Shown in pieces: positions 25,661-31,889 of a stretch of 64,000 nt of DNA. The DNA lies in NCBI RefSeq assembly GCF_001571225.1, contig NZ_BCTJ01000001.1, positions 434,001 through 498,000 of the forward strand, given 5' to 3'. This DNA is from Hydrogenophaga palleronii NBRC 102513. GTDB taxonomy: Bacteria; Pseudomonadota; Gammaproteobacteria; Burkholderiales; Burkholderiaceae_C. The notes under the pieces were generated by a model that was not told where the DNA came from, made no database searches, and saw nothing but the letters and a program-made list of their open reading frames with translations. Every line of letters starts with the position of its first letter. Positions within the stretch are counted from its first letter, which is position 1. The position numbers and the translations under genes are program-made.

Positions 25661-27202
25661 TTATCCCTGCGCCGCGACACGGTCAGATTTGCTGTGCAAC
25701 TTGTTGAGTGCGCTCAGATACGCCTTGGCCGAAGCCACCACGATGTCCGGATCTGCGCCCACGCCGTTGACCACGCGTCCGCCGTGCTGCAGGCGCACCG
25801 TCACTTCGCCCTGGCTTTCGGTCGATCCGCTGGTGATGGCGTTGACCGAGTACAGCACCAGCTCGGCGCCGCTCTTGACGTGCAGTTCGATCGCCTTGAG
25901 CGATGCGTCCACAGGCCCGTTGCCATCGCTTTCGCCATGGATCTCGGTGCCATCGACGGTGAAAACCACGTGGGCATGCGGGCGCTCACCGGTCTCGCTG
26001 CGCTGCTTGAGCGACACCAAGCCGTATTGCTCCTTCTCCGCCGTGACGCTCTCGTCGCTGCACAGGGCCAGGATGTCCTCGTCGAAGATCTCGCTCTTGC
26101 GGTCGGCGAGTTCCTTGAACGCCGCAAACGCGGTGTTGATCTCACTCTCCGACTCCATCTCGATGCCCAGGTCCTGCAGGCGCTGCTTGAACGCATTGCG
26201 GCCACTGAGCTTGCCCAGCACGATCTTGTTGGCGCTCCAGCCCACGTCTTCGGCGCGCATGATCTCGTAGGTGTCGCGCGCCTTGAGCACGCCGTCCTGG
26301 TGGATGCCGCTGGCATGCGCGAAGGCGTTGGCGCCCACCACGGCCTTGTTGGGCTGCACCACGAAACCGGTGGTCTGGCTGACCATGCGGCTGGCCGGCA
26401 CGATCTGCGTCGCGTCCACACCGACCTCCAGGCCAAAGTAGTCGCGCCGCGTGCGCACGGCCATCACGATTTCTTCCAGCGAGCAGTTGCCGGCGCGTTC
26501 GCCCAGGCCGTTGATGGTGCATTCCACCTGACGCGCGCCACCGATCTTCACACCGGCCAGCGAGTTCGCCACCGCCATGCCGAGGTCGTTGTGGCAGTGC
26601 ACCGACCAGATGGCCTTGTCGGAGTTGGGCACGCGCTCGCGCAGCGTGCGGATGAACTCGCCGTACAGCTCGGGAATCGCATAACCCACGGTGTCGGGAA
26701 TGTTCAGCGTGGTGGCGCCTTCCTTGATCACGGCTTCCAGCACGCGGCAGAGAAAGTCGGGGTCGCTGCGGTAACCGTCTTCCGGGCTGAATTCGATGTC
26801 GCTCACCAGGTTGCGCGCAAATCGCACCGACTGCCTGGCCTGCTCCAGCACCTGCTCGGGCGTCATGCGCAGCTTCTTCTCCATGTGCAGGGCACTGGTG
26901 GCGATGAAGGTGTGGATGCGCGCGCTCTGCGCCCCCTTCAGGGCCTCGGCCGCACGCGCGATGTCACGGTCGTTGGCGCGCGCCAGCGAACACACGGTGG
27001 AGTCCTTGATGGTGTTGGCGATGGCCTGCACGCAGTCGAAATCGCCATTGGAGCTGGCGGCAAAACCGGCCTCGATCACGTCCACCTTCAGGCGTTCCAG
27101 CTGGCGCGCGATGCGCAGCTTTTCGTCCTTGGTCATCGACGCGCCGGGCGACTGTTCGCCGTCACGCAAGGTGGTGTCAAAAATGATCAGTTTGTCGCTC
27201 AT
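25661..27202 (-). CDS. leuA: 2-isopropylmalate synthase (513-residue type)
   Basis: Condenses acetyl-CoA with 2-oxoisovalerate, the first committed step of leucine synthesis. Catalytic TIM barrel: [19 protein letters not shown] at the N-terminus, then [16 protein letters not shown] with the metal-binding His pair, and the GIHQDG motif. The C-terminal LeuA dimer domain (feedback site) is present ([38 protein letters not shown]). I chose the ATG at 27202 by homology. It is 40 bases downstream of another leuA and probably co-transcribed. A citramalate synthase role is possible but less likely, as typical betaproteobacterial LeuA has this form. Confidence 0.9.
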
Positions 27203-27242: not shown

Positions 27243-28928
27243 TCAGCCGACCTGCTGGATCTCGGATGTTTGGTTCGATGACGGCGCCACGCGCTGCAGG
27301 CCGGACACGATGGCCTTGAAGGACGCGGAGACGATGTTCGCATCGATGCCCACACCGAACAAGGTGCGGCTGTCATCGACGCGCAATTCGACATAGGCGA
27401 CGGCGCGCGCTTCGGCGCCCGAGCCGATCGCATGCTCATGGTAGTCGAGCACGCGAAGCTGCCGGCCGGTGGCCGCGGCCAGGCCGTTGACGAAGGCTTC
27501 GATCGGGCCGTTGCCCTGCCCGTCCACCGCCACCGGCCCGTCAGCCAGTTCCAGCCGCGCCGAGACCCGCACGCTCTGACCGTCCACGTCCTGCATCACC
27601 GGCTGCAAGGGCACCGGTGCATCGGCCAAGCCGTACTCGCGCTCGAAGATCTGCCAGAGGTCGGCCGCCGACAGTTCCTTGCCCGCCGCGTCCATGACGG
27701 CCTGCACCGCCTGGCTGAACTCGATCTGCAGGCGCCGCGGCAGCTCCAGGCCGTACTCGCTGGCCAGCAGATAGGCCATGCCGCCCTTGCCCGACTGGCT
27801 GTTGACGCGGATCACCGCCTCGTAGCTGCGGCCCAGGTCCTTGGGGTCGATCGGCAGGTAGGGAATGGCCCACACATCGCCGTCCTTGCGGACCGCAAAC
27901 GCCTTCTTGATCGCATCCTGGTGCGAACCCGAGAACGAGGTGTAGACCAGCTCGCCCACGTAGGGATGGCGCGGGTGCACCGGCAACTGGTTGCAATGCT
28001 CCACCTCGGAGCGGATGGCATCGATGTCGGAGAAGTCGAGGTTCGGCGAGACGCCTTGCACATACAGGTTGAGCGCGACGTTCACCACATCGAGGTTGCC
28101 GGTGCGTTCGCCGTTGCCGAACAGGCAGCCCTCCACGCGATGCGCGCCGGCCATCAAGGCCAGTTCGGCGGCGGCGGTGCCGGTGCCGCGATCGTTGTGC
28201 GGGTGCACCGACAGGATCACGTTGGGCCGGTCGGCAAAGCGCCGGCTCATCCACTCGATCTGGTCGGCGAACACGTTGGGCGTGGCGTTCTCCACCGTGG
28301 TCGGCAGGTTGAGGATCACCGGTCGGCCCGCACCCCAGGCCTCGATGGCGGTCTCACAGGCCTGCGCCGAGACGTCCAGTTCGGCCATGCTGAAGGTCTC
28401 GGGCGAATACTGCAGCACCCACTCGGTCTCGGGCTGCGCGTCGGTCAGGCGGCGGATCTGGCCCACGCTGCGCTGCACCAGGCCCATCACCTCGGGCACG
28501 CTCATGCCGAACACCACCTCGCGCCAGACCGGCGCCACGGCGTTGTAGACGTGCACGATGGCCTTGCGCGCACCCCGCAACGACTCCACGGTGCGGGCGA
28601 TGAGCTCTTCACGCGCGGGCGTCATCACCTGGATCGTCACGTCGGCCGGGATACGGCCCTCATCGATCAAGCGGCGCAGAAAATCGAACTCCACCTGCGA
28701 GGCCGCGGGGAAACCGACCTCGATCTCCTTGAAACCGATCTTCACCAGCAGGTCGAACATGCGCAGCTTGCGCGCCACGTCCATGGGTTCAATCAGCGCC
28801 TGGTTGCCGTCGCGCAGATCGGTGCTCAGCCAGATGGGGGCCTGCGTGAGCACGGCGTCGGGCCAGGTGCGGTCCTTGAGGCCAATCGGCTTGAAGGCGG
28901 GGTACTTGCTGGAAGGCTGTTTCAACAT
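27243..28928 (-). CDS. leuA: 2-isopropylmalate synthase (561-residue type)
   Basis: A second, distantly related LeuA of the longer type also found in actinobacteria. N-terminal [16 protein letters not shown] and [16 protein letters not shown] contain the substrate/metal residues; [17 protein letters not shown] and [10 protein letters not shown] follow; the region after about residue 430 is the LeuA allosteric domain with [16 protein letters not shown]. It is the first gene after the leucine leader peptide and attenuator at 28965-29079, so leucine supply should control it. It sits directly before the shorter leuA; the two could differ in feedback sensitivity or substrate. Confidence 0.9.
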
Positions 28929-28964
28929 GCTGCTCTTTCAATGTGATCGAAACCCACAGCCCCA

Positions 28965-29004
28965 AAATGCAAACGGCCCGCTGCGGGTGCAAACGGGCCG
29001 TTTT
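28965..29004 (-). terminator. Attenuator hairpin before the leuA pair
   Basis: On the minus strand AAACGGCCCG (29003-28994) pairs perfectly with CGGGCCGTTT (28980-28971) around a 13-base loop, followed by GCATTTT. It lies between the leader peptide stop (29023) and the leuA start (28928), the position expected for the terminator arm of a leucine attenuator. Confidence 0.75.
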
Positions 29005-29022
29005 GAATGGAATGCGCGCGCG

Positions 29023-29079
29023 CTACCAAGCCTGCCCGTGTCGGACACCCAGTAGTAGAGCGAAAGCGCGAAAAATCAT
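29023..29079 (-). CDS. leuL: leu leader peptide
   Basis: An 18-residue reading frame, MIFRAFALLLGVRHGQAW, with three consecutive leucines encoded CTA-CTA-CTG (29058-29050). CTA is very rarely used in such a GC-rich genome, so ribosome pausing under leucine shortage is plausible. It ends 19 bases before a GC-rich terminator hairpin that precedes leuA. This is the layout of classical transcription attenuation of leu operons. No clear Shine-Dalgarno sequence is seen before its ATG, which is a weakness. Confidence 0.7.
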   Translation of the reverse strand: MIFRAFALLLGVRHGQAW

Positions 29080-29124
29080 GCTGGGAACTGTATCACAAGC
29101 CCGAGCCGTATTGCGTTGAAGCCT

Positions 29125-29934
29125 TCAATCGTGCAAGCCACGTTCATCTGGCTCATCGGTCGAGGTGCTGATCACGCTGGTCGGGCGGCCCTTGGCCTTG
29201 CGCCAGAAGTACATGCCATAGCCAGACAGGCCATACACCACGAACAGCGCAAACAGCACGGTTGGCGGATGGATGTTGATGACTGCGATGCCGAGTGCCA
29301 CCAGCACGATGGACGCGAACGGCACGCTCTTCTTCAGGCTCAGGTCCTTGAAGCTGTAGAACGGCACGTTGGTCACCATGGTCAGGCCGGTGTAGAGGGT
29401 GATGGCGAACATTGGCCAGGTCACGTCCTGCGGCTCGACGCCGAGTTCGGTCATGAGCCAGATGAAGCCGGCCACCAGGGCGGCAGCCGCAGGCGATGGC
29501 AGGCCCTGGAAGAAACGTTTGTCCACCACCGCGGTGTTGACGTTGAAACGCGCCAGGCGCAAGGCGGCACAGGCGCAGTACACGAAGGCCGCGATCCAGC
29601 CCCAGCGGCCGATGTCGCGCAGCGTCCATTCGTAGGCGATCAGCGCAGGTGCGGCACCAAAAGACACCATGTCGGACAGCGAATCCATCTGTTCACCAAA
29701 CGCGCTCTGCGTGTTGGTCAGGCGGGCCACCCGGCCGTCGAGGCTGTCGAGCACCATGGCCACGAAGATGCCCACCGTGGCGAGGTCGTAGCGGCCGTTC
29801 ATGGCCATGACCACCGAGTAGAAGCCGCCGAACAGTGCGGCCAGCGTGATCATGTTGGGCACCATGTAAATGCCCTTGGGGCGGCGCGGCCGTTCTTCAC
29901 TCGGCGTCATGTGGGATTCGGTTCCGTCGTGCAT
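29125..29934 (-). CDS. pssA: PssA, CDP-diacylglycerol--serine O-phosphatidyltransferase
   Basis: Membrane enzyme making phosphatidylserine, the precursor of phosphatidylethanolamine. 269 residues with about seven hydrophobic segments. The CDP-alcohol phosphatidyltransferase signature DGx2ARx8Gx3Dx3D is exact: DGRVAR, then after eight residues GEQMDSLSD (around residues 65-87). This is the Bacillus-type (subclass II) integral membrane enzyme. It sits between ilvC and leuA, a common arrangement in this order. The start at 29934 is uncertain; ATG 29910 is an alternative. Confidence 0.92.
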   Translation of the reverse strand: MHDGTESHMTPSEERPRRPKGIYMVPNMITLAALFGGFYSVVMAMNGRYDLATVGIFVAMVLDSLDGRVARLTNTQSAFGEQMDSLSDMVSFGAAPALIAYEWTLRDIGRWGWIAAFVYCACAALRLARFNVNTAVVDKRFFQGLPSPAAAALVAGFIWLMTELGVEPQDVTWPMFAITLYTGLTMVTNVPFYSFKDLSLKKSVPFASIVLVALGIAVINIHPPTVLFALFVVYGLSGYGMYFWRKAKGRPTSVISTSTDEPDERGLHD

Positions 29935-31761: not shown

Positions 31762-31889
31762 GTGCGATTCCTCTTTTCGCCGCCCTCCCCCACGCACGGT
31801 AATGCGTGGGCTCGGCGGACAATAGATTCGTCTGAGGGGATGAAGCGGCGGCACCCGGCCACCGATTCGCGGAAGAAAAGCGGCGCTGC

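Follow-up and report, generated by a model that had tools for sequence, protein, structure and literature searches.

The window, the whole 64,000-nucleotide stretch analyzed here, carries on its minus strand a short Leu-rich reading frame and a GC-rich hairpin in the gap between pssA and two consecutive leuA genes. Both of the latter, already read as leuA genes in an earlier note made from the sequence alone, are 2-isopropylmalate synthases according to profile matches above cut-off. The features discussed below are as follows, with the basis of each assignment given in brackets where there is one.

29087..29095, minus strand: predicted extended -10 promoter element TGA-TACAGT, 7 nt before the leader ATG (sequence and aligned loci)
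29023..29079, minus strand: leader ORF (leuL) of 18 codons, MIFRAFALLLGVRHGQAW and stop, predicted leaderless (frame and homologous leaders)
29058-29050, minus strand: putative regulatory Leu codons CTA CTA CTG (CTACTACTG) (sequence, CTA counts, homologous leaders)
29020..29061, minus strand: helix 1:2, candidate anti-antiterminator, GC-CTAC at 29061-29055 with GTAG-CGC at 29026-29020, including the stop codon (alignment)
29047-29042 with 29038-29033, minus strand: inner hairpin of helix 1:2
29034..29039, minus strand: candidate antiterminator arm 2, ACGGGC (pairing with arm 3, little variation)
28993..28998, minus strand: arm 3, GCCCGT, the partner of arm 2 within the terminator 5' arm (sequence, alignment)
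28971..29003, minus strand: predicted intrinsic terminator hairpin 3:4, stem AAACGGCCCGTT/AGCGGGCCGTTT (arms 29003-28992/28982-28971), loop TGCACCCGC (sequence, alignment)
28980..28988, minus strand: 5' strand of an extra helix, P5, in the terminator loop, ACCCGCAGC (alignment)
28952..28960, minus strand: 3' strand of P5, past the U-tract, GCTGTGGGT (alignment and covariation)
27243..28928, minus strand: leuA, long type (TIGR00970, leuA_yeast), ATG at 28928, predicted regulated gene (profile match)
25661..27202, minus strand: leuA, short type (TIGR00973, leuA_bact), next downstream (profile match)

The same gene cluster holds a second RNA element, an ilvH RNA (RF02993, 94.2 bits), at 31765-31832 of the minus strand; the gene presumed to encode the small subunit of acetolactate synthase lies shortly downstream. 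Inspection by eye upstream of ilvB revealed no obvious run of Leu, Ile or Val codons that would indicate a second leader there.

For comparison, 140 leuA loci were assembled from the window's own genome (L001), 60 genomes of the genus (30 loci, L002-L031), 150 genomes of the family (29 new loci, L032-L060) and named GTDB records (best 80, L061-L140); from its named relatives we take the family to be Comamonadaceae-like. A Leu-run leader with a GGCCCG/CGGGCC hairpin was present in 97 of these loci, including the short-leuA matches L023-L031, and the other 43 gave no such combination. Four of the 97 (L012, L062, L068, L070) were left out by hand as mis-picked or odd in frame, leaving 93, and removal of L002, L066 and L067, identical over the element to L001, L034 and L007, respectively, gave the 90 aligned rows from which a covariance model was built. 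A wider set of 120 loci was formed by dropping L002 from the 93 and adding 28 of 30 divergent loci, L176-L205 with L191 and L199 left out; it contains two repeats since L066 and L067 were kept. L144-L175 are in no count. In its own genome the model gives one confident match (E 9.5e-22), the next two having E values of 8.4 and 9.7. Across the family it matches 256 of 299 genomes, representing 124 of 141 genera, with no match in 43; the class sample yields 3 matches in 369 genomes, all from the window's family, and the order sample 8 in 250, of which six belong to the family and two to a single other family, all three samples being subject to the stricter filters used in model searches over 40 genomes, which lose weak matches. 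Conservation of the small frame and its Leu run in relatives, which the earlier note had proposed as a check, is therefore upheld by both the locus and the genome counts. Two genomes of another family in the order (L206 and L207) carry the element before a long leuA, and one genome (G103) has two copies in separate places (C12:545-690 and C77:111305-111452), preceding a long leuA in one case and a short leuA in the other.

The gene order around the element is nearly constant. A leuA gene follows directly in 120 of 120 loci (90 long, 30 short), the independent part of this count being the 28 of 28 loci found by the RNA model alone, as the other 92 were found via LeuA, and pssA lies upstream in 116 of 120. 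That the element precedes either type of leuA suggests that control goes with the locus and not with a particular enzyme.

The leader ATG at 29079 lies 45 nt 3' of the pssA stop codon on the minus strand of the window, and its TAG stop codon occupies 29025-29023, confirming the 18-codon frame with three adjacent Leu codons before leuA that had been described earlier. The rarity of CTA claimed for this DNA is also borne out, as none of the 358 Leu codons counted in 10 protein genes from the window is CTA, compared to 278 of 519 Leu codons across the 120 homologous leaders. The sequence CTACTACT is found only once on the two strands of the 64-kb window. In the aligned run, CTA is the first Leu codon in 64 of 65 leaders, and the next two mostly alternate between CTA and CTG; we infer that CTA conservation is partly structural and that codon rarity is probably the other part. 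Nearest pairs of homologous leaders differ 67, 54 and 97 times at codon positions 1, 2 and 3, and 41 of 149 codon differences are synonymous, which equals the random expectation of 0.27. Support for leader translation thus comes from CTA use and from codon position; the rate of amino acid change lends none. Judged on these features, the locus contains a short, apparently translated leader ORF with adjacent codons for the amino acid of the pathway, and the recurrence of the frame, the Leu run and the hairpin in one position throughout the family goes beyond chance.

Upstream of the frame lies an arrangement that the earlier note missed. All 120 loci have a TAnnnT hexamer upstream of the leader ATG, separated from it by 6-12 nt and, in 104 of them, by 6-8 nt, a spacing that is not fully independent in the 28 divergent loci, where the box served as a tie-break in choosing the ATG; in L004 and L051 the leader start was shifted by hand to an in-frame ATG 9 nt upstream. 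The hexamer is preceded by TGn, with T in 83 and G in 88 of the 90 aligned rows. None of the SD-like tetramers GGAG, GAGG, AGGA and AAGG occurs just upstream of the leader ATG in any of the 120 loci. This spacing and the absence of an SD-like tetramer together predict that the leader mRNA is leaderless, with a transcript from the -10-like box expected to begin at or next to the leader AUG. Because the leader has no Shine-Dalgarno sequence, RNA reading through from ilvBNC-pssA would be poorly translated in the leader and should terminate by default. A leaderless start would let only transcripts from the element's own promoter be translated efficiently at the leader, and would be a simple means of insulating leuA from ilv-pssA read-through.

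The core of the terminator stem, GGCCCG/CGGGCC, is invariant in 90 of 90 aligned rows, the same core having been a selection criterion for the loci. The GC stem reported in the earlier note holds up, with a perfect GC core, and the short T-run reported behind it is weak in the window itself (GTTTGCATTTT). Among the 81 aligned loci bearing P5, the 9 nt after the stem core include 4-8 T, and 5-7 T in 77 of them, so that sequence comparison points to an intrinsic terminator between the leader and the biosynthetic gene. Leader-based leucine control could instead act mainly through Rho access or leuA translation, with the involvement of P5. The poor U-tract of the window, the position of P5 between the terminator and leuA, and the lack of a visible T-run in the aligned Oxalobacteraceae-like leaders would suit such control; the T content of the 81 loci and the absence of consistent pairing of the leuA SD region on inspection by eye speak against it, and we consider it improbable relative to control through the intrinsic terminator.

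An antiterminator had only been inferred in the earlier note, and a clear candidate for it is now available. Within the final third of the leader, the consensus ACGGGY is able to pair with GCCCGT in the 5' arm of the terminator in 96.6% of alignment cells, compared to 19-59% when the arms are slid. Covariation was dropped as proof of this helix, since its columns vary too little: shuffled pairing already reaches 95.1%, three cells are changed on both sides, and 247 of 500 shuffles match the observed number of pairs changed on both sides. Arm 2 occurs as CAC GGG C, GAC GGG C and CCA CGG GT. Its retention across two reading frames speaks for selection at the RNA level. In the competing helix 1:2, the first Leu codons pair with the stop-codon region; its basal pairs are formed in about 79% of cells in the 90 sequences, and it covaries weakly, the counted pairs being out of register in PRVR-type leaders. 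Terminator, antiterminator and helix 1:2 constitute three predicted, mutually exclusive helices that fit the trp/leu model. The position of the hairpin 3' of pssA in the great majority of loci would also be expected of a mere terminator of the ilvBNC-pssA unit, with the small frame incidental. Such a terminator would not account for the Leu-rich frame and the conserved -10-like box that separate pssA from the hairpin, for the enrichment of that frame in a codon absent from the 10 neighboring genes counted, or for the match of the leader ACGGGY to the terminator arm, and we regard this explanation as hardly credible beside an attenuator.

Folding of the 90 leaders was calculated for the stage at which arm 3 coexists with the leader before arm 4 exists, with the extent of the ribosome footprint assumed. 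On average, the leader bound a fraction of arm 3 of 0.81 when a ribosome was stalled at the Leu run, 0.29 in naked RNA and 0.20 when the ribosome stood at the stop codon (medians of 0.83, 0.07 and 0.09, respectively). When bases between the Leu run and the stop codon were shuffled, the stalled mean fell to 0.47, and the real value was higher in 85 of 90 leaders. Exceptions were stalled values below 0.5 in 5 of 90, naked values of at least 0.5 in 27 of 90 and stop-state values of at least 0.5 in 11 of 90. Folding with a modelled stalled ribosome thus favours the antiterminator, and in these calculations the stalled ribosome releases an antiterminator that excludes the terminator, as an attenuator requires.

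These observations are consistent with the following sequence of events. RNA polymerase would start at the -10 box, placing the mRNA 5' end at or next to the leader ATG, and a ribosome would begin on the leaderless AUG. With charged tRNA-Leu present, the model calculation has the ribosome reaching the stop codon and covering arm 2 (ACGGGC), so that terminator 3:4 would form and transcription would stop before leuA. When leucine is short, the ribosome would stall on CTA-CTA-CTG and open hairpin 1:2; arm 2, just past the modelled footprint, would be free for arm 3, and transcription would proceed into leuA. Untranslated RNA would mostly adopt helix 1:2 and terminate. After read-through, the terminator loop and the segment past the U-tract would pair as P5, probably forming an H-type pseudoknot with the terminator stem. 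On the evidence of comparison and in silico folding, which support the classical attenuation reading of the earlier note across the family, the element is very probably a leucine-responsive, ribosome-mediated transcription attenuator, pairing of P5 after read-through included. Leucine control of leuA by attenuation would thereby be predicted for a whole betaproteobacterial family.

P5, which joins the terminator loop, often along with a base of arm 4, to sequence immediately past the U-tract and had escaped the earlier note, is the most covarying helix of the element. Nine pairs were counted, with 89.3% of cells paired, and six of the nine are changed on both sides. The covariation score is 0.291, compared to 0.133 for shuffled alignments (reached in 0 of 500) and at most 0.112 when slid; 17 of 500 shuffles match the number of pairs changed on both sides and 0 of 500 the number of paired cells, with the trimming of alignment rows just after P5 aiding its register in these counts. 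Independent of that trimming, dinucleotide shuffles of the downstream 50 nt place P5 at p 0.05 in 79 of 90 loci, compared to 0 of 90 for a control stretch further down. A P5 helix of at least 7 pairs is present in 81 of 90 loci, among which there are 41 different arm pairs. P5 is weaker or absent at the family edge: of 27 divergent loci used out of 30 (L180, L191 and L199 left out), 11 reach p 0.05, compared to 1 in the control stretch. No clear P5 was seen by eye in the two loci outside the family (L206 and L207), and P5 may be an addition of this family.

The geometry of P5 suits an H-type pseudoknot stacked on the terminator stem. In 69 of 81 loci its 5' strand stops at arm 4 or extends one base into it; this strand is preceded by a stretch of 5 nt in 45 of 81 (0-7 nt in all), with a connecting stretch of 11-33 nt (median 14). 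Two other roles were considered and rejected: as a nested alternative to the terminator at equilibrium, P5 is outcompeted by the terminator, which takes 0.97 of naked, 0.88 of stalled and 0.97 of stop-state RNA, and as a DNA-binding palindrome its arm gap of 15 to 41 nt among the 81 loci is ill-suited to a dimer site. P5 might also be a second intrinsic terminator hairpin, as its 3' strand is followed by at least 4 T in 6 nt in 22 of 81 loci. The other 59 lack such T content, and at equilibrium P5 as a plain hairpin takes up 12% under a stalled ribosome and 2-3% otherwise; such a hairpin would be a rival of the first terminator and arise chiefly in the ON state, opposite to what repression by leucine calls for, and we judge this role for P5 very improbable. 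As the 3' segment is made after the U-tract, P5 should matter rather in the read-through RNA, affecting stability, translation or Rho access, or between RNAs. P5 would form only after the terminator decision is over and represents a conserved feature beyond the standard attenuation model. A two-layer regulator is conceivable, if doubtful, in which the loop of the attenuated leader RNA pairs in trans with the same segment of leuA mRNA, or a cis pseudoknot sets the stability or translation of the read-through mRNA. If this were true, the attenuated product would feed back on the messages that escaped.

No Rfam leader family reaches its gathering score at the element in the window or in 10 relatives. 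This includes Leu_leader, the family for the leuA attenuators of enterobacteria and Shewanella. A search of 28900-29150 gave two hits with E up to 1, Thr_leader (23.9 bits, gathering score 55) and a viral pseudoknot family, and Rfam membership was rejected on these sub-threshold values. Vitreschak and colleagues are said to have surveyed attenuators in proteobacteria. Searches of the PMC literature, which takes in few subscription papers, showed no leuA attenuator for Comamonadaceae-like bacteria, and leuA goes unmentioned in the main text of a survey of premature terminators (PMC2965389). The Shewanella leuA attenuator comprises a leader peptide with Leu codons, an anti-antiterminator, an antiterminator and a terminator before leuA, the same parts, a leader peptide and three helices, as found or predicted here (PMC2659441). 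The E. coli leu leader peptide, with 28 aa, is longer than the window's leader (PMC6123439). The element described here differs from the enterobacterial and Shewanella attenuators in its predicted leaderless start and in the extra helix P5.

The actinobacterial LEU element also has a Leu-run leader peptide and a conserved pseudoknot upstream of leuA, the pseudoknot being predicted in our case (PMC1262725). There the pairing partner of the Leu run is the Shine-Dalgarno box of leuA, and mutations in the Streptomyces element did not fit classical attenuation (PMC1262725); here, in contrast, the Leu codons can pair with the leader stop-codon region and a standard terminator is present. The trpL leader of Sinorhizobium meliloti (peTrpL, rnTrpL) starts with the ATG of the leader ORF, as predicted here, and the attenuated RNA acts in trans (PMC7298713). 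That system responds to Trp rather than Leu and comes from another bacterial class, and trans action is a feature of trpL. Judged from sequence, a classical leucine attenuator is very probably present family-wide, its leader predicted to be leaderless and its terminator loop joined to the downstream segment by a covarying helix.

Two other arrangements were encountered before leuA. Oxalobacteraceae-like loci (L108-L111, L114, L126, L133-L136, L138 and L139) carry, some 250 nt before leuA, a conserved leader region of another make-up, centered around CTAnnG-AYCGGTTGCC-GGCC and followed in most by GTGGCC..CCGGCAGCC...CGCCAC. In these, GGTTGCCGG can pair with CCGGCAGCC and GTGGC with GCCAC, no T-run being seen, and the region is possibly another kind of leucine leader. 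In the Solimonas-type loci L099, L107 and L116, the leader ends in Leu codons and CTTCTGCCGTAA, followed directly by GGCAGACC, so that the two sequences form an inverted repeat around the stop codon.
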